DNA of 42,481 nucleotides. It comes from a virus. The stretch lies in the IMG/VR virus record IMGVR_UViG_3300020200_002993, positions 1 through 42,481 of that record. One strand, given 5' to 3'. The translations under genes were made by a program, and so were the position numbers. Below the pieces are notes generated by a model. It had not been told where the DNA came from, made no database searches, and saw only the letters and a program-made list of their open reading frames with translations. This document shows positions 388 through 42,481 of this stretch, one piece after another (within the stretch, counting starts at the first letter, position 1; each line of letters opens with the position of its first letter).

Positions 388-1097
388 GAATTGATTCCTA
401 CGCGCGAGCCGTTGGTAAAAATCTTCTCAATGGGCACATCTTGTTTGTGATTATATCCTTGTTTGAAGCCAATGTCTTGTGCTAGTGGCGCGGTATCAGG
501 AGACGCCACTATATACCCTAAATCTTGAAAAGCATTGTTCCAATGAGAACCAGCAATCCGATGTCGCCTAAACCAACCGATTTCCTCAAAGTCCTTCCGA
601 CGTACCATAAACGAATTTGAGCCAGCACGCATGTTGAGAAACCAATTCTTACTCTTTGTCTCAATCTCTCCTTTCCAATACTGCGGCTGACGATGAATTC
701 TGTCTACTGATAATGGAGTCGCAAGATATTTTTTAAGCGGGTATTCAGTAAGTACTTCAAGACATGCTTCAACCCACCCTTGTTGGTACTCAATATCGTT
801 ATCAGAAATAACTAAGTTCTCTCCTGAAGAGAGAAGAATAGCTTGATTGCGCGCATGACCAAAGTGCATATTGCGCGCGTTGCGCAAATAAAACTCAATC
901 TTTTTGTCTTGCGCGAGCGAGAGCAAGTACATCGAATCGTCCCAATTCTCCCCATTGTCCACCACTAAAATCTCACAGGGAGCGCTTAAAGTCGTCGCAA
1001 TGAGCGACTGCATGCAACGCCGGAGCGTCTCACTTCGGAAGGCGTTTTGCGCCCAATGTGTGACAATTATCGAGATGCTTCCTTGAATGATTGGCAT
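384..1097 (-). CDS. Family 2 glycosyltransferase
   Basis: A 237-residue GT-A fold glycosyltransferase. The N-terminus ISIIVTHW is followed by CEILVVDNGEN (nucleotide-binding strand and loop) and by ISDNDIEY near residue 98, which takes the place of the metal-binding DXD. The region with AGSNSFMVRRKDF and GWFRRH fits the acceptor half of GT2 enzymes. The ATG at 1097 lies 31 bases inside the end of the AsnB-like gene, and its TGA overlaps the next start as ATGA, so it sits in a coupled glycan operon. The likely job is adding one sugar to a phage-borne glycan; the substrate is unknown. Confidence 0.85.
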   Translation of the reverse strand: MPIIQGSISIIVTHWAQNAFRSETLRRCMQSLIATTLSAPCEILVVDNGENWDDSMYLLSLAQDKKIEFYLRNARNMHFGHARNQAILLSSGENLVISDNDIEYQQGWVEACLEVLTEYPLKKYLATPLSVDRIHRQPQYWKGEIETKSKNWFLNMRAGSNSFMVRRKDFEEIGWFRRHRIAGSHWNNAFQDLGYIVASPDTAPLAQDIGFKQGYNHKQDVPIEKIFTNGSRVGINS

Positions 1098-2413
1098 ATT
1101 TTTTCTTGTGTTTCTACCCAGACCTTTTTGTCATACTTGTTCTCAACGCCGAGCCATTGATTAACCGAAGCGTAGAGACCGGCTTTCTCAAACTCTTGGT
1201 ACGCGGGAAACCGCTTCAGCAAAACCTTTCGCAAAATCTTCTTCGTGGTCAATCCGTCAATCTTTTCTTCAGGCGGAAGTGAAAACGCAAAATCAATAAT
1301 TCGCCCATCAAGAAACGGACATCGGTTCTCAATGCCCCACGCGCTCGCCATGCGATCTCCCATGCGCAAGAGTTCCTGCATGTTGCCGTAGAACTCTTTG
1401 ACACCCGCGTCATTCACATTTTGCGCCGGTTGGAACATTGTCTGATACGAAGGAAATCTCTTCTGCGCTTCTGCGTTGAAATGCGGTTGCACATAACGCA
1501 CATACCCACCGAACAACTCATCAGCGCCTTCTCCGGAAATCACTACCTTTACGGACTGGGATGCTTCGCGCGCCAAGCGCCATAGCGCATACGCCGAAAA
1601 ACTCTTCACGGGGTAATCAAGGTGCCAAACAATCTTGCGAAGATTTTTTTTGAAGTCCTCTTTATAAAGGGAAGAATCAACATACGAAAACAACTTACTA
1701 AAACGGTGAAAGGTAGCAAGCAAAGAAGAATCAATACCGCCAGAGTAATAGAGACCATACGGAACATCACTCCGCGTACGTAAACGAACCGAGTCTTCCA
1801 AAAGGAGTTCCAACTCTTGTTCGCGAGTAAGGTGCGAGCTAAATATGTAATTTCCAATTTTATGTTGCGCATGATTTTGAATTTCATTCTTTTTGAGATT
1901 AACAGTGAACGCAGAACCCGGTGGCATCTCTTCGCACTCCCAATTTAACGCCTTCGCTTCTGACGCAAAGTAAAACCCTTTTTTATCTTTTCGATAGTAG
2001 AGTGGCTTCTCTCCAGCAATGTCCCGCGCCAAAAAGAGTTTCTGCTCTTGTGGTTCGTACACACAGAAAGCATACATTCCGTTAAGATGTCGCAAACAGT
2101 ACTCTCGATGATGTTGCCACATCCGCAAGAGAACTTCCGTGTCAGAATTCGTCACAAAGACATACCCTATCTTCTTTAAGTTCTCGCGCAGTTCTATAAA
2201 GTTATAAATCTCTCCGTTGAAAGTGAGAATCGTCTTGTCATCCACTAATGGGAAAAGATTCTTAGAAGTAAGGTCAATCACGGCAAGGCGACCCATGCCG
2301 ATTGAATAACCGTCTCTCTCAACAACTTTCAAACCATCGGGACAGCGATGCCGCATGACCAGAAGCATACGTCTTACTTCCTCGCGGTTTGTTCCTCCGG
2401 CAATCGCGCACAT
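1067..2413 (-). CDS. AsnB-like glutamine-dependent amidotransferase (asparagine synthase family)
   Basis: A 448-residue two-domain enzyme. The ATG at 2413 was chosen because it places the catalytic cysteine at position 2 (MCAIAGG); an upstream TTG would bury it. The class II glutaminase domain shows FNGEIYNF at about 65-72 and SDTEVLL. The synthetase domain has the pyrophosphate loop YSGGIDSS and GEGADELFGGY. The family's usual RGPD reads RCPD here. It is about 100 residues shorter than typical asparagine synthetase B. Asparagine-synthase-like proteins in polysaccharide clusters are known to amidate sugar acids. Its place between glycosyltransferase and methyltransferase genes makes that role more likely than asparagine synthesis, but this is inference. 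Confidence 0.88.
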   Translation of the reverse strand: MCAIAGGTNREEVRRMLLVMRHRCPDGLKVVERDGYSIGMGRLAVIDLTSKNLFPLVDDKTILTFNGEIYNFIELRENLKKIGYVFVTNSDTEVLLRMWQHHREYCLRHLNGMYAFCVYEPQEQKLFLARDIAGEKPLYYRKDKKGFYFASEAKALNWECEEMPPGSAFTVNLKKNEIQNHAQHKIGNYIFSSHLTREQELELLLEDSVRLRTRSDVPYGLYYSGGIDSSLLATFHRFSKLFSYVDSSLYKEDFKKNLRKIVWHLDYPVKSFSAYALWRLAREASQSVKVVISGEGADELFGGYVRYVQPHFNAEAQKRFPSYQTMFQPAQNVNDAGVKEFYGNMQELLRMGDRMASAWGIENRCPFLDGRIIDFAFSLPPEEKIDGLTTKKILRKVLLKRFPAYQEFEKAGLYASVNQWLGVENKYDKKVWVETQEKICQSFKEASR

Positions 2414-2898
2414 TCTATTAGAAACCAATTACTGGTAAGATGTCTAAAAGATACAACAGATGTCTTAGACTTTGCAAGTCCCTCTGTCCACATATGTCCG
2501 TTAAATCCGTAAAGAAGCGTAGCCAAAATCCGTCCATTTTTTTTCAGAATACGTGATGCCTCCTTAATAAGGGGAAACCAGTCATCGTAATAATCAAGAA
2601 CTCCGAATAAGACAGCGGTATCAAATGTTTCTTTTGGAAGACCGGTACATGAAATATCAGCCACAATATATTTTCCGTTTGGGAAGTTTTTCTGTGCTTC
2701 TTTTATAGCTTGAGATGAAAAATCAATCCCCGTCAGGTCGATATTCTTGTCTTTATACAAGAGGCATGTTCCACAAGCAAGGTCTACCACTTTTCCTTTT
2801 ATAAAAGGTAAAACCGCCGACCACACATCAGCGTGGTGGCGGTTATACCGACCATAAGGTCTTGACCATACTCCGTTCCAATAAGCAGCCCCATACAT
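2374..2898 (-). CDS. SAM-dependent methyltransferase (type 11 class I fold)
   Basis: A 174-residue class I methyltransferase. Motif I is VVDLACGTCLL near residue 38; an acidic strand end lies in LTGIDFSSQAI, followed by DTAVLFGVLDYYDD and SRILKKNGRILATLLYG. The ATG is one base after the stop of the Ser/Thr-rich mini-gene, and the gene overlaps the AsnB start by 40 bases, so all three are probably co-translated. The location at the head of the glycan cluster suggests methylation of a sugar or glycan terminus. The substrate is unknown. Confidence 0.85.
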   Translation of the reverse strand: MYGAAYWNGVWSRPYGRYNRHHADVWSAVLPFIKGKVVDLACGTCLLYKDKNIDLTGIDFSSQAIKEAQKNFPNGKYIVADISCTGLPKETFDTAVLFGVLDYYDDWFPLIKEASRILKKNGRILATLLYGFNGHMWTEGLAKSKTSVVSFRHLTSNWFLIECARLPEEQTARK

Positions 2899-12403: not shown

Positions 12404-13723
12404 ATGCCCGAAAATACTAATGCGGCGCGTCCAGAAGGCGCGCCGACATCAACACAAAACTATTTCATCCAACACAACATACATTGCGACATATGCAACG
12501 AACCAGCAAACGACACCGACCACATTCCAAGCAGGACGCACAATGAGCATTTTGTGTGCAAAATATGCGATAACGAAACATTTTACTATTGCGAAAATAG
12601 CGAATGCGGACAATTTTTTCGCGCAGATAACTCAATCAACGAGGACTGGGGGATATTCTGCTCAAACGACTGCGCGAGAGAATGCGAACCCGAACCCGAC
12701 AGAGACAATGACAGCGCGGAACTAGGGAGAAGGAACGCAACACACACTATTTACGGCGACTATGCTCAACCGAGCGGCGACATAATGAAAAGCCCGCGAG
12801 TGTTCGGCGTAGAACTTGAAACAATTTACCGCGACAACGAAAAAGCAGACGAAGCCGCACGAGCACTAAAAATCCCGCTATGGGGAATACACGAGGACGC
12901 CAGCATTGACCGAGACGACAGCGAAGGAACGGCAGAATGGGTATCACCGCCCTTGTTCGGAAAGATGGGCGAGAATGAAATCAAAAAAGCATGTTCCGTG
13001 TTGCGTTCGCATTCTTTCGCTGTGAACGATAGTTGCGGCTTTCACTTGCACCTATCCGCCCCCGAATACCGCGCAAATCCTCACGAGGATATAAAGACGC
13101 CAACGCTTGACCACTTACCGCGAGTATCACGAAACCGAACCCCGCACAGCCCCCGAAATGAAAACGAAATGACGAGACGCAACTATGGAAAAGCGGCGCA
13201 AAACTTGAAAACGCTTTTTGTCGCTTATATTGCGCTGGAACGCTTGTTTTTGTCGCTAGTGTGCAAAAAGAGACGCCGAAATCGTTATTGTATGCCGCTC
13301 TCCGCAAGTTACCCGCTCAAAAAAATACTTTTGCTGGATGACTACTACGCGCTAGAGCGGCTATGGTATGAAGAAAGCGAACCCGCTAATGTAGAACGGC
13401 GAAAATCAAACGGAAAAATGGACGATACGCGCTACAAAAACGCAAACTTTCACTCATTATTCCGCTACGGAGCGGCGGGAACATTTGAAATCCGCTCGCA
13501 TAGCGGCACGCTGAACGCAATAAAAATACTGCACTGGACGAACCTACACGCCAGCATACTGGACGCAATCGCAAGCGGAAAACTCACGATTGAAGCGTTG
13601 CTCCCGCTGACGGACGGACTGAAAACACCCGTGCAACTCGTGGACTTCATAAAACCTTACATCGGAGAAGCAACCGCCACTTATTGCGCCGCCCGCATTA
13701 CCCGCTTATCAAAAGAAAACTAA
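12404..13723 (+). CDS. Zinc-finger-containing amidoligase (Amidoligase_2-type)
   Basis: A 439-residue protein in two parts. Residues 28-94 hold nine cysteines (CDIC, CKIC, CENSEC, CSNDC, ARECE) and probably bind two or more zinc ions. From about 130 comes a carboxylate-amine ligase of the glutamine-synthetase-like fold, with GVELE (135-139), HEDAS, CGFHLHL (211-217) and FEIRSHSGT (361-369), the family's metal and nucleotide-binding signatures. Related ligases form amide bonds using ATP. The next gene, two bases downstream, is a class II glutamine amidotransferase that could supply ammonia. This pairing has been described by comparative genomics, with peptide or protein modification proposed. 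The target here is unknown. Confidence 0.85.
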   Translation: MPENTNAARPEGAPTSTQNYFIQHNIHCDICNEPANDTDHIPSRTHNEHFVCKICDNETFYYCENSECGQFFRADNSINEDWGIFCSNDCARECEPEPDRDNDSAELGRRNATHTIYGDYAQPSGDIMKSPRVFGVELETIYRDNEKADEAARALKIPLWGIHEDASIDRDDSEGTAEWVSPPLFGKMGENEIKKACSVLRSHSFAVNDSCGFHLHLSAPEYRANPHEDIKTPTLDHLPRVSRNRTPHSPRNENEMTRRNYGKAAQNLKTLFVAYIALERLFLSLVCKKRRRNRYCMPLSASYPLKKILLLDDYYALERLWYEESEPANVERRKSNGKMDDTRYKNANFHSLFRYGAAGTFEIRSHSGTLNAIKILHWTNLHASILDAIASGKLTIEALLPLTDGLKTPVQLVDFIKPYIGEATATYCAARITRLSKEN

Positions 13724-13724
13724 A

Positions 13725-14777
13725 ATGTGCGGCATAATAGCGCACTGGCGCAAAGACAACGCACCCGCCTCAAAACAAATCATAAAACGCTACCACAAAC
13801 AAAAAGAGCGCGGAATGCAAGGGTTCGGTTATGTTGCATTTGAACCGCAAAGCGGCGCGATTGCAACAATCCGAAGGCGCACAAAAGAAGCCGACATACT
13901 GACAGAATTGAAAAAAGAAACCGCGCCCGCTTTCATATTCCATCACCGCTTGCCGACCAGCACGCCAAACTTGAAAGAAGCGGCGCACCCTATCACGACA
14001 AAAACAAAACGGCGCACCTACTACACGATACACAATGGGATTATATCCAACGCTACCGAGCGCAAAACCGCGCACACGGCGGCGGGATATTCCTACACAA
14101 CCGAAATCATACAGCGAACGCAATATATCGCCGCCGAACGGACATATTGGAGCATGGAACAAAAACACTTCAATGACAGCGAAGCCCTAGCGATTGACCT
14201 TGCCCGCTACCTAGACGGCGAGACCGAAAGCATAGAAAGCATAGGAAGCGTTGCCGCCATCGTGCTTGAAACTGAAAACAGGAAAGCCCGCGCGTTGCAC
14301 TGGATACGGAACAACGGAAATCCGCTCAAAGTAGAAAACACAAAACAACTACTCACAATCCGCTCGGAAGGAGACGGCGAGGAAGCCCCCCCGCACATTC
14401 TGCACACGCTAGACCTGCAAAGCGGCGCGATTGCTACGCGCCCGCTTGAAATAAAAAGCACGACATCCTCATTCGGCGGATACGGCTTAAATCCATATCA
14501 CTACAATTCCAGAGGATTTGAAGATGACGCAGAAAACGAGGAGTTGCTAGTATTTACGCCGCGCGAACTACTTGATAGCGGCTACGATAGAGAAGAACTC
14601 CAAGAGGACTATGAGGACGAGATAGCATACAGAGTTGAAGCATTGCGAGTAGGTGGACTAACGGCGAGCGAACGAGCGTGCGCCGTTGCGGAACTGGACG
14701 AATTGCGCGGAAAATTACGCGCACTTAACACGATTGTATATGAAACCGACATCCCGCGAGCCAATTTATTCGGCTAA
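13725..14777 (+). CDS. Class II glutamine amidotransferase partnered with the amidoligase
   Basis: A 350-residue Ntn-hydrolase. The catalytic cysteine is residue 2 (MCGIIAHW), and FIFHHRLPTSTPN and YTIHNGIIS supply the glutamine-binding arginine and the oxyanion-side HNG. The domain ends near residue 215. The C-terminal portion is acidic and unfamiliar (ELLVFTPRELLDSGYDREELQ). There is no synthetase domain, so the released ammonia must be used by another protein, most simply the adjacent amidoligase. The start is fixed by the required N-terminal Cys and lies two bases after the upstream stop. Confidence 0.88.
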   Translation: MCGIIAHWRKDNAPASKQIIKRYHKQKERGMQGFGYVAFEPQSGAIATIRRRTKEADILTELKKETAPAFIFHHRLPTSTPNLKEAAHPITTKTKRRTYYTIHNGIISNATERKTAHTAAGYSYTTEIIQRTQYIAAERTYWSMEQKHFNDSEALAIDLARYLDGETESIESIGSVAAIVLETENRKARALHWIRNNGNPLKVENTKQLLTIRSEGDGEEAPPHILHTLDLQSGAIATRPLEIKSTTSSFGGYGLNPYHYNSRGFEDDAENEELLVFTPRELLDSGYDREELQEDYEDEIAYRVEALRVGGLTASERACAVAELDELRGKLRALNTIVYETDIPRANLFG

Positions 14778-16668: not shown

Positions 16669-18672
16669 CTAATCCGTGGCGCGTCCTTTATACACAAAGG
16701 CGCGCCACTCGTCGTTTATATGTTTGCTCAAATCTTTTTGCAAGGGAGAAGTATCAAAGATTTCTTTTGCATCTGAACTTAACGTATCAGTCCAAGTGTT
16801 GTCGTAAATAAGCATACCGCTGTTATGTTTACCGTGAAGCTTATCGTTGAGAGTGTCCCAAGGACGCGCTGTCAGCAACTCGTATAACGAGTATTTCAAT
16901 TCACCCAAGTTTTCTTTCTTTGCCTCTTCTAATGCTTCTTCGTTGAGACGACTCACTGTATCTTCTCGCGCCCCTTTCTTTGACAGATAACGGAGATACA
17001 CTCGCTCGGCTAATGCCGGCGCGCCCAATGCTGCACCGAGCAAAATCATATTGTGAATGAGGTCATCCATGTTGTAAGAATAACCTCGCCCTGCCGACAG
17101 GTGATACACCACTGCGTCCGGCACGCAGACAACATTGCTTCCTTTCATCCACCATTTCAAATCAAGATACAACTCACCCCCGCCATAACAACGAAAGAAC
17201 GGATTGTAGCCGCCAAACTCTATAAACTGCTTGCGCAACATACCCAAACAGCAATGCCCGGAAACCGGTATGTAGTATGGCTTTGTGCCGTCTCCGACTA
17301 CTAGCCGATTCCATGTCTGCCCCGTAACTGAAACAACGCCAGCTCGTCTGATAAAGATAGTTCCATTACCGACTGTCGGACACCATACTTTTCCTTTGTA
17401 TTCAATAATTCCAAGTCGCGGGGAGAAAGAACTTTTTTCTCTACGATTAACTGTAAAAAGCGGTCTTTCGCTAAATCGCCCATACATTTTTGCGCCGGTG
17501 TAATTCTTTACACTTTTTCGAGAAGTAAAACCAATAAGTGCTAAAAGCATTTGAACCATATCGACGGTCTTCTCGTTTGCTTGACTAAACAAATTTCCTT
17601 GACCGTCTCCACTCATTAGTCCTTCATACAAAGCAACTCGTTCTTCATGTGTACAATGCAGAACACTAGGTAATAGTTCTTTGCCGGATATATTCAAGAT
17701 TGTCTTGCTTGCCTCAACAGTCAAACGATATCGAGCACATCCATTTCCTTTTTCAGAAGTAGAAAAAGTCATACCCGCTTTCTTCAAGTCATTCTCCAAT
17801 TCCACCCGTTTTGTTTTTTGAATGATAGAAACTCTTTGACTTTTTCCATGCCATTCAACGCAACCTTCAGAAATGAACCAACCAACTACGCGATATAGTT
17901 CAGGTTTTCCTTTTTCATGACTCACTTCACCATTCCAGCGCAAGGGAATTACAGAAGCATGTGTCAGTTCTTTTGCTAATTGAATTGTCATTTTATCTCC
18001 ATTTAAGACAACACATCTATGGTCAGGGGTAACCCATTGTTCTGCGAGTTTTTCCACTCCAATCAAGTGTCCGTCATAATCCCATTCTGTCATCTCCAGC
18101 ACAGGTTGAATCTCGACTGATTTGGTAGCTAGATTCAAAGTAGGGATAAGTTGCCCTTTCATAACTTCAGTTCGCTTTTTCCATCCATCCATAGTAAGAA
18201 CTTCTGTTTTTTCATCAACACAACCCCACAATTTTTCTCCAATCTTGAGTGAATACTGGTACGAAGGAATAGAAGGAAGCCATCCCCCCATCCATTGCAC
18301 CGCAGGATGAACAATTCCTCCGAAGTCGTCTATTGCTTGAATGAGCTTCTTAAACGTTCCGGGAGGATAACTCATATGCGCATCAGAAAAGAAAATATAC
18401 TTTCCCGTTGCTAACGCAACACCTTTATTGCGCGCGCTCACATTGCCAAAAATTGGGTCAAATACAATTCGCACCGTGCCGTGCGAATACAACCCGCGTG
18501 CGGCAATGAACTCCCATGTCCGCCGGTCTACTGAACCATTATCAACGAGGATGATTTCTATTTCTTCGGGCTTGAGAAAGCTCCCAAGGTCGTTGAGAAT
18601 AGAATGAACCGTGTGGACGATGTTGCTGAATTCGTCCCGTGCGGAGATTATGACCGAGATTTTCTTTTCCAT
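16669..18672 (-). CDS. GT2/GT27-like glycosyltransferase interrupted by an intein
   Basis: A 667-residue precursor. The flanking parts (1-150 and 453-667) make a 365-residue GT-A glycosyltransferase: KISVIISARDE, IILVDNGSVD, RNKGVALATGKYIFFSDAHM (D-x-H metal motif at 97-99) and CYGGGELYLDLKWW near 495-508. The D-x-H and the GGGE...W motif, then VPDAVVYHL, resemble polypeptide GalNAc-transferases (DxH, WGGEN), which glycosylate Ser/Thr. The similarity is by eye and needs testing. The insert from Cys151 to Gln452 is a splicing element (see 17317-18222). The gene ends the early leftward block, after GT4, epimerase and methyltransferase genes. Confidence 0.85.
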   Translation of the reverse strand: MEKKISVIISARDEFSNIVHTVHSILNDLGSFLKPEEIEIILVDNGSVDRRTWEFIAARGLYSHGTVRIVFDPIFGNVSARNKGVALATGKYIFFSDAHMSYPPGTFKKLIQAIDDFGGIVHPAVQWMGGWLPSIPSYQYSLKIGEKLWGCVDEKTEVLTMDGWKKRTEVMKGQLIPTLNLATKSVEIQPVLEMTEWDYDGHLIGVEKLAEQWVTPDHRCVVLNGDKMTIQLAKELTHASVIPLRWNGEVSHEKGKPELYRVVGWFISEGCVEWHGKSQRVSIIQKTKRVELENDLKKAGMTFSTSEKGNGCARYRLTVEASKTILNISGKELLPSVLHCTHEERVALYEGLMSGDGQGNLFSQANEKTVDMVQMLLALIGFTSRKSVKNYTGAKMYGRFSERPLFTVNRREKSSFSPRLGIIEYKGKVWCPTVGNGTIFIRRAGVVSVTGQTWNRLVVGDGTKPYYIPVSGHCCLGMLRKQFIEFGGYNPFFRCYGGGELYLDLKWWMKGSNVVCVPDAVVYHLSAGRGYSYNMDDLIHNMILLGAALGAPALAERVYLRYLSKKGAREDTVSRLNEEALEEAKKENLGELKYSLYELLTARPWDTLNDKLHGKHNSGMLIYDNTWTDTLSSDAKEIFDTSPLQKDLSKHINDEWRAFVYKGRATD
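17317..18222 (-). other. Intein with LAGLIDADG-type homing endonuclease
   Basis: 302 residues within the glycosyltransferase. Block A starts at Cys1 (CVDEKTEVLTMDGWK). Block B has TPDHRC with the splicing His at precursor residue 218. The endonuclease motifs are YRVVGWFISEG (260-270) and LYEGLMSGDG (348-357). The C-terminal blocks read GNGTIFIRR and VSVTGQ followed by Thr as the +1 nucleophile. Terminal Gln instead of Asn, with Gly before it instead of His, is a known minority variant and may slow splicing. The insertion point is just before a TW in the acceptor-binding half. The frame is intact throughout. Confidence 0.88.
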
Positions 18673-18780: not shown

Positions 18781-19536
18781 TCATAAAGGCATTTCAAGTT
18801 TATACACCAAGGGAGAGTCCTCTGTGTTCAACTCTCGCAATTCGAAGTCCTTGTTCAATACGGTAACCGCCTTAAAATGCCTCGTAAAGAGCGTATATGC
18901 CTCGCTAGGGGTCATTTCGTAGCAGTGATGAGGGTTAATAGGGGTGTCCTTTCCTAACCGTGGATTTAAGCGATTCGGGGTAGATAGATAAACAACGGTG
19001 CGGTCTTCTCCGCTCTCCCAGTTGCCTCGTTTATCTTTTTTTACAAACCGCCGGAGTGCGCGCAGTAAATCGTCTGCTTTTTCACGAGGCAAGTGTTCAA
19101 TGACTTCAATGCACGCCACGAAGTCAAACTGCATAAATTCCCGCGAATCAGAAAGAATGTCTATCGTGTCAAAAGTCACTTGCGACGTGTAGTAGATGTT
19201 TTGTTGCACGGGACGCTCAAACATCTGCCGCGCGTAGCATATGCTCTCGTCGTTGTTGTCTATTCCCCACGCGAATTGCGCTTCACGGGAAAGAAGATTT
19301 GTGCCGATACCGCACCCACATCCCACATCCACAATAGTGGACTTGTTTATGTGCTTCGGAAAGCCGTACTTTTTTGCCGTGCTTTGCGCGAGGACTTTCA
19401 CCAAATTCAAGTAAATATCTCTCTGTGCTGAAGGCATAACTTCACCAGCACCCTTAAAACGTCCGTGAATCCGGCTAAGAAGGTCTAGTTCCGATGCCGG
19501 TTCTCTGTCCGTGTATCCGTCAGGTTTTTGAATCAT
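18781..19536 (-). CDS. SAM-dependent methyltransferase, 251 residues
   Basis: A class I methyltransferase with motif I IVDVGCGCGIGTN near residue 69, an acidic strand end in AWGIDNNDES, and FDFVACIEVIEHLPREKADDLL as motif IV and its following helix. STPNRLNPR suits post-motif strands. The ATG at 19536 follows the stop of a 37-residue membrane-protein gene by one base (TAATATG). It lies between an epimerase and a glycosyltransferase gene, so sugar or glycan methylation is likely. An upstream extension to 19575 would overlap that mini-gene and was not preferred. Confidence 0.85.
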   Translation of the reverse strand: MIQKPDGYTDREPASELDLLSRIHGRFKGAGEVMPSAQRDIYLNLVKVLAQSTAKKYGFPKHINKSTIVDVGCGCGIGTNLLSREAQFAWGIDNNDESICYARQMFERPVQQNIYYTSQVTFDTIDILSDSREFMQFDFVACIEVIEHLPREKADDLLRALRRFVKKDKRGNWESGEDRTVVYLSTPNRLNPRLGKDTPINPHHCYEMTPSEAYTLFTRHFKAVTVLNKDFELRELNTEDSPLVYKLEMPL

Positions 19537-19537
19537 A

Positions 19538-19651
19538 TTACCAATGAATATTCCAACCGAATAAATAACCAACAAGTTTTAAGACAAAGAATATTGTGAG
19601 CCCGTATAGAGCAAATAAACCGAGTAACAAGATTGCTTCTTCTGCTGTCAT
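19538..19651 (-). CDS. 37-residue membrane protein between epimerase and methyltransferase
   Basis: MTAEEAILLLGLFALYGLTI followed by FFVLKLVGYLFGW: a continuous hydrophobic helix after a short acidic start. The ORF fills the gap between the epimerase and methyltransferase genes, and its stop lies one base before the latter's ATG. The bases before its ATG (GAATACGAAGT) also precede the epimerase ATG at 20566, a shared leader that supports translation. It might anchor glycan enzymes or carrier-lipid steps at the membrane. Confidence 0.55.
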   Translation of the reverse strand: MTAEEAILLLGLFALYGLTIFFVLKLVGYLFGWNIHW

Positions 19652-37324: not shown

Positions 37325-38578
37325 TTATGTCCTAATTCTCACAATTGGGTCAAATTGCCGTAAGCGCAATATCGGGATTTGGCTAGAGTGCGGAGCTGTT
37401 GTTGTGGAGCTGGTACTGGTAGAACTGCTCGTCGAAGTGCTCGTTGAGGTAGAAGTTGAGGTGGTGGAACTGCTGCTCGATGTCGAACTTGATGTGCTGG
37501 AACTGGAAGAAGTGCTTGATGATGTACTCGTCGAAGACGAAGTGCTCGTTGAGGTAGAAGTAGATGAGCTGGTGCTTGTGCTTGAACTTGTGCTTGACGA
37601 GGTGCTTGTGGAAGATGATGTTGAGGAAGTCGAGGACGATGTAGAAGTTGAAGAAGAGGTGGACGAACTCGTGCTCGTGCTGGAACTTGTGCTCGTGCTT
37701 GTGCTCGTAGAGCTTGAAGTAGTTGATTCGGTATTTGAAGTTGTGGTGCTTGACGATGTTGAAGACGAAGTTCCTGAAGTTGTGCTCGATGAAGTTGAGG
37801 TGGATGTTGAGGAAGAAGAACTCGTACTTGTTGAAGTAGAGGTGCTACTTGATGTTGAGGTGCTGGTTGAAGTTGAAGAAGAGGTGGACGAACTCGTGCT
37901 TGTTGAAGTTGAAGTAGATGTTGAAGTAGATGTTGAAGTAGAGGTGGAAGAGGTACTCTCAGGAGGAATTGATAATATATATGACCGAATATCATCTGAT
38001 GAAGAAGCCGTGAAAGACAAAGTATCAGACCCTGCGGGGGAGACAACTCCATCAGAATCTATAACACCAGCACCACCACCATTGACAACTTGGGCATCAC
38101 CTGAACCTGCTGTCCATGTTCGTTGTCTATCCCCTATTAGCCAGACAATCCAACAATTATCAGCAATAGTAGTCAATGATTTAGACAATTCCGTAAGACC
38201 ATTTTGTTCTGAAGTATCATTGGCATCAGGCACTCCAGCAGTATTAACACCAGAATATGAAGCTCCTGCAACAACAAAATCAGCTAATGAATTAGACCTA
38301 GAAGCAATCAAATCATAAGTTCCAATATCAGGAGTAGTCAATTGGTAATGTTTGATGGATGCAAAATCTCCGCCACCAAAATCTATATAATTAGCATAAA
38401 CTTCGGTCATTGCGTCTCCGTTCCAAGTGCAACCTGTAATGACATTCGCAGATGACGGCGCACGAGCATAAACAGTTGCAAAGACAATGACATTTGAGCC
38501 AGACACAGTAAAATTAGCCGTCACTGTAGATGATGACGAACTAGAACCTGAACCTGAACCTGCGCGTGTGATTGCCAT
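37325..38578 (-). CDS. Virion surface protein with a mucin-like Ser/Thr tract, 417 residues
   Basis: Residues 1-205 form a compact, beta-rich, lectin-like domain after a Gly/Ser start (GSGSGSSSSSSTVTANFTVS), with VIVFATVYARAP and WIVWLIGDRQRTW among its strands. Residues about 207-395 are almost purely Ser and Thr in alternation. A short tail (SSQIPILRLRQFDP) ends the protein. The ATG follows GAAGGAATCC at good spacing. A tract of this kind is the classic substrate for dense O-glycosylation, and glycosyltransferase genes lie on the same transcript. The start of the neighbouring glycan cluster is 350 bases upstream. Confidence 0.82.
   Translation of the reverse strand: MAITRAGSGSGSSSSSSTVTANFTVSGSNVIVFATVYARAPSSANVITGCTWNGDAMTEVYANYIDFGGGDFASIKHYQLTTPDIGTYDLIASRSNSLADFVVAGASYSGVNTAGVPDANDTSEQNGLTELSKSLTTIADNCWIVWLIGDRQRTWTAGSGDAQVVNGGGAGVIDSDGVVSPAGSDTLSFTASSSDDIRSYILSIPPESTSSTSTSTSTSTSTSTSTSTSSSTSSSTSTSTSTSSSTSTSTSTSSSSSTSTSTSSSTTSGTSSSTSSSTTTSNTESTTSSSTSTSTSTSSSTSTSSSTSSSTSTSSSTSSTSSSTSTSSSTSSSTSTSSSTSTSTSTSSSTSTSSSTSSSSSTSSSTSSSSSTTSTSTSTSTSTSSSTSTSSTTTAPHSSQIPILRLRQFDPIVRIRT
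37394..37960 (-). repeat. Low-complexity Ser/Thr-coding tract
   Basis: About 190 codons of Ser and Thr. Synonymous codons (AGC, TCT, TCA, TCG; ACA, ACT, ACG, ACC) are mixed, so the protein sequence, not a DNA repeat, is what is conserved. The antisense strand reads as a long open frame of Val/Glu/Leu, a by-product. Confidence 0.85.
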
Positions 38579-42064: not shown

Positions 42065-42481
42065 AATGTCGTAAATGTTCGGGAATAGGAATTCCACAAT
42101 GACCTTTTTTATGGAATCTGTAATCGTGGCGCCGACTTTTGCGCCGCCAATCCCCTAAATGAATAAAATAATTTTGTAATCGACGACACAACACCGGTTG
42201 GTTAGCCCGTGATGAAACTTTCTTTCCGCAATATGCCAACACCTCTCTTCCATACGGGTTTACCCATTGGATATCGTGGGTGTTGCGAAAAAGTCGCGCA
42301 ACTTGCAAATCAGTATGCAGAGCAGGGTCAAGAATTTTGTCATCTTCTATATGTAAAAACGGAATCGAATACACAGAAACCGCACCGTCCACTGAAACAA
42401 TTTCTTCCATCGTTTCTTTGGGAAAAATCTCATCATCGTCAATTTTCAAAATCCAGTCAGTAAAAGTGTTGCGACGCATAT
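42051..42481 (-). CDS. Family 2 glycosyltransferase, C-terminal part (runs off the window)
   Basis: Open at the window edge. It continues after NTFTDWILKIDDDEIFPKE, the metal-binding section, with VARLFRNTHDIQWVNPYGRE and a C-terminal His-rich segment (GDWRRKSRRHDYRFHKKGH). The first 45 codons match the last 45 of the fragment at 1-387. Joined through that overlap, the two halves give a complete enzyme of about 226 residues, in line with small GT2 enzymes. Confidence 0.82.
   Translation of the reverse strand, partial: MRRNTFTDWILKIDDDEIFPKETMEEIVSVDGAVSVYSIPFLHIEDDKILDPALHTDLQVARLFRNTHDIQWVNPYGREVLAYCGKKVSSRANQPVLCRRLQNYFIHLGDWRRKSRRHDYRFHKKGHCGIPIPEHLRHYVYN
42345..42481. repeat. Right copy of the diverged terminal direct repeat
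   Basis: Direct repeat of 1-137 with 126 of 137 identities, in the same gene frame. Substitutions include amino-acid changes (Asp/Gly, Pro/Ser, Ala/Arg), so this is not an exact assembly overlap. Confidence 0.85.

Follow-up and report, generated by a model that had tools for sequence, protein, structure and literature searches.

Organization of the interrupted glycosyltransferase gene

The window, by which we mean the whole viral DNA stretch of 42,481 nucleotides analysed here, carries on its minus strand a glycosyltransferase (GT) gene that is interrupted by an in-frame intein. The features of the locus, with the evidence for each in brackets, are as follows.

16669..18672 (including stop), minus strand: precursor gene, intein-interrupted glycosyltransferase, 667 aa (single open frame)
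18223..18672, minus strand: N-extein, residues 1-150, GT-A donor-binding half with SDAHM (DxH), ending ...GEKLWG (homologue alignment)
17317..18222, minus strand: intein, 302 aa, CVDEKTEVL...SVTGQ (phage intein matches, alignments, AlphaFold2, Foldseek)
18184..18222, minus strand: intein block A, nucleophile Cys1 (Cys1 in 33/33 aligned inteins)
18001..18048, minus strand: intein block B, WVTPDHRCVV, catalytic Thr65 and His68 (alignment of 33 inteins)
17413..17907, minus strand: LAGLIDADG homing endonuclease domain, residues 106-270, limits approximate (model, partial LAGLIDADG_3 match)
17863..17892, minus strand: first LAGLIDADG motif, RVVGWFISEG, acid Glu119 (Glu/Asp in 33/33)
17602..17631, minus strand: second LAGLIDADG motif, LYEGLMSGDG, acid Asp206 (Asp in 33/33)
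17353..17400, minus strand: intein block F, YKGKVWCPTVGNGTIF, Cys281 (Cys281 in 33/33)
17317..17337, minus strand: intein block G, VSVTGQ end, penultimate Gly301 and terminal Gln302 (GQ/T common to the TerL sister clade)
16669..17316, minus strand: C-extein, residues 453-667, starting at Thr+1 (TWNRLV...), motifs GHCCLG and RCYGGGE (homologue alignment)
18781..19575, minus strand: neighbouring methyltransferase (Pfam Methyltransf_25)

The insert corresponds to precursor residues 151-452 and contains no internal stops, and its flanks, when joined, give a predicted spliced glycosyltransferase of 365 residues. Ten distinct intein-free homologues from IMG/VR align unbroken over the junction and read G/TWN or G/TWS (a slash marks the splice junction here and below). 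Since these homologues read Gly-Thr-Trp through the junction, the boundaries of the insert are exact, and the comparison with intein-free relatives that a preliminary description of this DNA had proposed as a check came out in favour of an insertion, the ten relatives being continuous at G/TW.

Elsewhere in the window, an amidoligase-like gene (12404-13723, plus strand) adjoins a glutamine amidotransferase-like gene (13725-14777, plus strand), and an asparagine synthase gene lies at 1067-2428 (minus strand). The two window ends, 1-137 and 42345-42481, both fall inside a GT2 gene and overlap imperfectly, being about 92-96% identical over 126-137 bp. It suggests that the genome is circular, or circularly permuted, and was put together from variants differing slightly, or else that the ends form a near-repeat.

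Identification of the insert as a class 1 intein with a LAGLIDADG endonuclease

When we searched phage records with the insert using tblastn, 192 records were matched, 182 of them across 80% or more of the insert's length; the best 40 of the 192 matches run from Cys1 to residue 301/302 (E values down to 9e-19). The hosts of these matches are large terminase (TerL), portal protein, DNA polymerase, DNA methylase, nucleotidyltransferase and a phosphatase; several of the matched inserts carry an intein annotation or appear as inteins in the literature (PMC5050341). As judged from these alignments, the likeness of the insert to phage inteins is far beyond chance. Single-sequence searches of Pfam, NCBIfam and PDB sequences were too weak to identify an intein (LAGLIDADG_3 gave a partial match with an E value of 2.8e-4, slightly below the cut-off), so that the identification rests on relatives, profile and fold. 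The profile, built from eight sequences (the insert and seven of the matched phage inteins), matched the solved inteins PI-PkoII, AceL NrdHF and V-ATPase inteins; the profile search proposed in the preliminary description therefore succeeded with the family profile, although the single sequence just missed the LAGLIDADG_3 cut-off. The first eight-sequence alignment of distant phage inteins was too diverse for scanning the collection.

An AlphaFold2 model of the insert, computed with an alignment of 33 inteins as input, reached a pLDDT of 94.1, and Foldseek matched it to PI-PfuI (7e-13) and PhoVMA (6e-11), and also to TliVMA, PI-SceI and I-DmoI, indicating a HINT fold at the level of the model. 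In the modelled endonuclease domain, helices alternate with strands in an arrangement like that of I-DmoI and PI-PfuI, and both LAGLIDADG helices carry a catalytic acid. In an alignment of 33 inteins, Cys1, His68, Asp206 and Cys281 show no variation. Position 119 holds an acid throughout, either Glu or Asp; position 65 holds Thr in 31 sequences and Ser in the other two, and 25 inteins terminate in Asn against eight in Gln. The in-frame insertion, Cys1, the T..H of block B, Gln302 and Thr+1 together correspond to a class 1 intein, for which Gln is an accepted C-terminal residue (PMC4031507). Class 3 inteins are characterized by a WCT triplet (Trp B12, Cys F4, Thr G5) and have neither Cys1 nor Ser1 (PMC7664689, PMC5050341). 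Cys281 and Thr300 are both present in the window intein, but the presence of Cys1, and a Cys at B12 where class 3 has Trp, led us to reject a class 3 mechanism.

The preliminary description had placed an intein with a homing-endonuclease motif at 17317-18222 within a phage glycosyltransferase, with which relatives, profile and fold agree; its Cys1, TPDH block B, LAGLIDADG-like motifs (VVGWFISEG and YEGLMSGDG) and intact frame were all found as described. Based on these observations, the insert is very probably a full-length class 1-type intein with a monomeric two-motif LAGLIDADG endonuclease, for which splicing, homing and an ectopic move between TerL and the glycosyltransferase are predicted.

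The host glycosyltransferase and its neighbourhood

A GT2 domain (PF00535, E value of 6.2e-20) was detected at precursor residues 6-117, together with the conserved SDAHM donor-site acidic motif of a GT2 (GT-A) enzyme, and the spliced 365-residue protein aligns over the junction to GalNAc-T10, with GalNAc-T structures matched at an E value of 2e-8. The host enzyme is thus predicted to be a GT2/GalNAc-transferase-like glycosyltransferase. The ten distinct intein-free relatives in IMG/VR are 40-63% identical to the 365-residue product, and no family member departs from Gly150, Thr151 and Trp152 (numbering of the spliced protein); a search of a phage database with the glycosyltransferase gave one weak relative (28%).

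The gene order GT1 - methyltransferase - GT2 recurs in L002-L004 and in L099, in intein-free and intein-bearing relatives alike, and in L001 the methyltransferase adjoins the glycosyltransferase. Small HNH/NUMOD-like endonuclease frames lie between methyltransferase and glycosyltransferase in two relatives (L099:1524-1997 and L003:2525-2962, both plus strand), and they make the interval an apparent hot spot of homing elements. The window also encodes, at 37325-38578 (minus strand), a 417-aa protein with pure Ser/Thr repeat stretches, and Ser/Thr-rich genes occur near the same glycosyltransferase cluster in relatives (L002:626-919, plus strand; L176:4376-4969, minus strand). The combination of a Ser/Thr-repeat protein with a GalNAc-transferase-like enzyme suggests a putative virion protein with mucin-like O-glycosylation.

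Two intein lineages at the same glycosyltransferase site

IMG/VR, scanned with a block-F DNA pattern, yielded inteins in numerous phage genes, and those that matched the window intein best were five distinct TerL inteins (L056, L064, L068, L072 and L081/L091), which are 34-37% identical to it by BLAST and 37-41% when aligned (E values down to 3e-51) and whose host proteins were assigned by phrog_675 and GpA_ATPase. When 85,000 bacterial and archaeal genomes were scanned, one distant intein (26%) came up, and thus no cellular source was identified. Several TerL genes contain more than one intein-like insert: L032, with a frame of 2261 aa, apparently has four or five, and L081 and L064 apparently have two each (the TerL frames of L081/L091 and L064 are 1181 and 1155 aa). 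It should also be mentioned that phrog_85 ("thymidylate synthase") and phrog_12229 ("ribonucleotide reductase") match intein sequence here and not the enzymes, so that they can mislabel intein-bearing phage genes.

Further intein-bearing glycosyltransferases came from a profile search and a glycosyltransferase-motif scan of IMG/VR. The inteins of L099 (GEEIKG/C...MVSFN/TWNN) and L178 (GEEFKG/C...VMLTGN/TWTN) are inserted at the same codon boundary as that of the window, so that three of the 13 distinct family members carry an intein and ten do not. In the extein tree, the three intein-bearing glycosyltransferases each group with intein-free members, and a single clade of them was rejected (p-AU 2.6e-12). 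The intein tree joins the window intein to the five TerL inteins as their sister (100/99) and places L099 and L178 together (100/98), apart from it; in a 70-row tree this pair adjoins a different TerL intein (98/92), a join that the 32-row tree does not resolve. For the three inteins at the glycosyltransferase site, a single clade was rejected (p-AU 0.003). When the domains were analysed separately, the window intein was placed with the TerL inteins by both the splicing domain (100/95) and the endonuclease domain (100/99), with marginal one-clade tests (p 0.044 and 0.060, respectively). Because both domains give the same placement, we rejected the idea that the insert is a chimera of the two. 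The window intein lies on a long branch of about 1.0 change per column.

As a rule, inteins that share a site are one another's nearest relatives (PMC1635734, PMC9957025), and the window intein and the L099/L178 inteins run contrary to this pattern. Since the inteins at this site belong to different lineages and one origin was rejected, we suggest that the site was occupied at least twice, by two intein lineages, and that an intein probably moved ectopically between the terminase and glycosyltransferase genes. It is unlikely that one ancestral intein at the glycosyltransferase site diverged and gave rise to the TerL copies, without a second invasion of the glycosyltransferase. The unrooted tree gives no direction of ectopic transfer, and the deep nodes linking the two groups lack resolution, both of which leave room for such an ancestor, but the rejection of a single clade of the three inteins speaks against it, as does the scatter of intein-bearing glycosyltransferases among intein-free ones, and it needs at least one exit from the glycosyltransferase to TerL together with many losses.

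Resemblance between the terminase and glycosyltransferase target DNA

We compared the 18 bp around the window site with the insertion sites of the five TerL inteins. At the Trp-type TerL sites, 12-13 positions are identical, and the window site ranks first among about 360 in-frame glycosyltransferase positions for three of the five TerL sites, while the two Phe-type TerL sites match poorly (8/18 and 10/18). Among 1953 site pairs from non-homologous exteins, 0.36% reach 13/18 and 0.92% reach 12/18; for pairs with Thr+1 the values are 2.0% and 3.9%, respectively, all percentages being uncorrected for picking the best of five TerL sites. The likeness is partly forced by the shared Gly-Thr-Trp codons, and the L099 and L178 sites match TerL sites equally well, but the inteins they hold do not form a sister group to these TerL inteins.

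On the DNA level, the resemblance suggests that the homing endonuclease may have cut a look-alike site, that of TerL versus that of the glycosyltransferase; the intein would move ectopically between the terminase gene and the glycosyltransferase site via similar target DNA, in either direction. We tentatively propose, as a possible course of events, that the Gly/Thr-Trp site served as a shared landing site, into which a lineage with its home in TerL (...G/ACNTGG) jumped and which a second lineage invaded independently. Ectopic intein movement is considered very rare (PMC1635734, PMC4071816), and one earlier study reported non-allelic sister inteins without flanking-DNA similarity to explain them (PMC1635734). 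By contrast, the intein described here is sister to terminase inteins with resembling target DNA. This kinship with terminase inteins, and the presence of a second lineage at the same site, are the points likely to surprise a specialist.

The Gly-Gln end and the proposed splicing and homing

The window intein ends in Gly-Gln before Thr, as the preliminary description had pointed out, yet this end is not peculiar to the window copy. All five sister TerL inteins show the junctions RG/C...SVTGQ/T followed by Trp or Phe and then Thr, and another TerL intein group ends GQ/S. In a group of 79 phage inteins, 68 end in Gly-Asn and nine in Gly-Gln, so that by alignment a penultimate Gly is the norm of the group, and Gly-Gln/Thr appears as a trait of the lineage, the rule in the sister TerL clade. 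Inteins with a terminal Gln splice, the CIV RNR intein even better with Gln than with Asn (PMC4031507), and a phage intein with a penultimate Gly showed complete splicing while its His mutant was poor (PMC5050341). Given the Gln-terminal sister clade and these published results, the Gly-Gln end, although uncommon, occurs elsewhere too and does not point to a loss of activity. The conserved Gln-terminal phage clade could serve the study of splicing without Asn.

After translation, Cys1 would form the N-terminal thioester, aided by Thr65 and His68, the N-extein would be transferred to Thr+1, Gln302 would cyclise, and the exteins would be joined, from which we infer a 365-residue glycosyltransferase and an excised intein as the products. 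The insert separates the SDAHM donor-site half from the acceptor-side motifs GHCCLG and RCYGGGE, and the unspliced precursor is therefore probably inactive until spliced. Structure prediction of the full precursor was poor (pLDDT 68) and was left unused, so that no claim about disturbance of the glycosyltransferase fold is based on it. The endonuclease would cut intein-free gene copies at the G/TW codon boundary, with the intein copied in by repair, presumably during co-infection; the patchy distribution of inteins among the relatives is consistent with homing.

A defective or dying intein, leaving the glycosyltransferase inactive or cleaved, is improbable. Terminal Gln is slow in some inteins, such as Pab and Mma PolII (PMC4031507), but the frame is intact with every catalytic residue kept, the Gln is conserved in the divergent sister clade, the invariant glycosyltransferase motifs are intact in both exteins, and both the CIV RNR intein and the phage RDF intein, the latter with its penultimate Gly, splice as described above.

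It had also been supposed that splicing could make glycosylation conditional. We found no regulatory sign, and the scattered occurrence of inteins amid intein-free relatives is in keeping with a selfish element. Conditional splicing exists elsewhere (PMC5790916, PMC6195587), the insertion site lies between the invariant G150 and T151-W152 of the glycosyltransferase fold, so that the unspliced enzyme is probably inactive, and three glycosyltransferases carry inteins at this site. We nevertheless regard a switch that turns glycosylation on at some stage or under stress, and whose benefit keeps inteins at the site, as highly improbable, since ten of the 13 distinct family members, including the nearest relative (63%), have no intein, the endonuclease acids are retained as a selfish element predicts, and the recurrence is explained by the conserved target. 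Finally, a lineage-specific domain insertion or assembly chimera in place of an intein, to which the weak single-sequence family scores might point, is practically excluded by the fold, the profile, the boundaries, the end-to-end intein homology and the inteins at the same site on two independent contigs.

Comparison with known systems

The window intein is a further case of a mobile element of known type, found here in a host gene that is unusual for it, and it extends phage inteins to a carbohydrate enzyme. The Gln-terminal TerL inteins share with it the LAGLIDADG endonuclease, the class 1 signature and identity over the whole length, and form its sister clade in the whole-intein, splicing-domain and endonuclease-domain trees; they differ in their host, a packaging ATPase. 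The L099 and L178 inteins share the glycosyltransferase family and the codon boundary (G/TWN or G/TWT), with neighbouring genes alike in L099, but their identity to the window intein is only 32-34%, their last two residues are Phe-Asn and Gly-Asn, respectively, and they belong to the other lineage. The phage LAGLIDADG inteins of GordTnk2, Woes, GX15bay, RedBird and HyRo and those of mycobacteriophages (PMC5050341) reside in genes for TerL, portal protein, DNA polymerase, methylase and nucleotidyltransferase. They resemble the intein of the window in block layout, Cys1, the block-F Cys and usually the penultimate Gly, whereas they are about 25% identical, end in Asn and have mostly nucleic-acid or packaging hosts. 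The native C-terminal Gln of the Chilo iridescent virus RNR and Pyrococcus PolII inteins is compatible with splicing (PMC4031507). These inteins are likened to that of the window by their terminal residue, and their hosts differ.

Fungal chitin synthase is a GT2-family glycosyltransferase. Inteins are known in its gene (CHS) (PMC5784728, PMC1635734), and the preliminary view of a glycosyltransferase as a host outside the usual intein genes has to be qualified by this GT2 precedent. The literature searched, mostly other than subscription journals, yielded no phage glycosyltransferase intein. The CHS inteins are likened to the window intein by host family: both interrupt a GT2 enzyme, the one in a nuclear fungal gene and the other in a phage.
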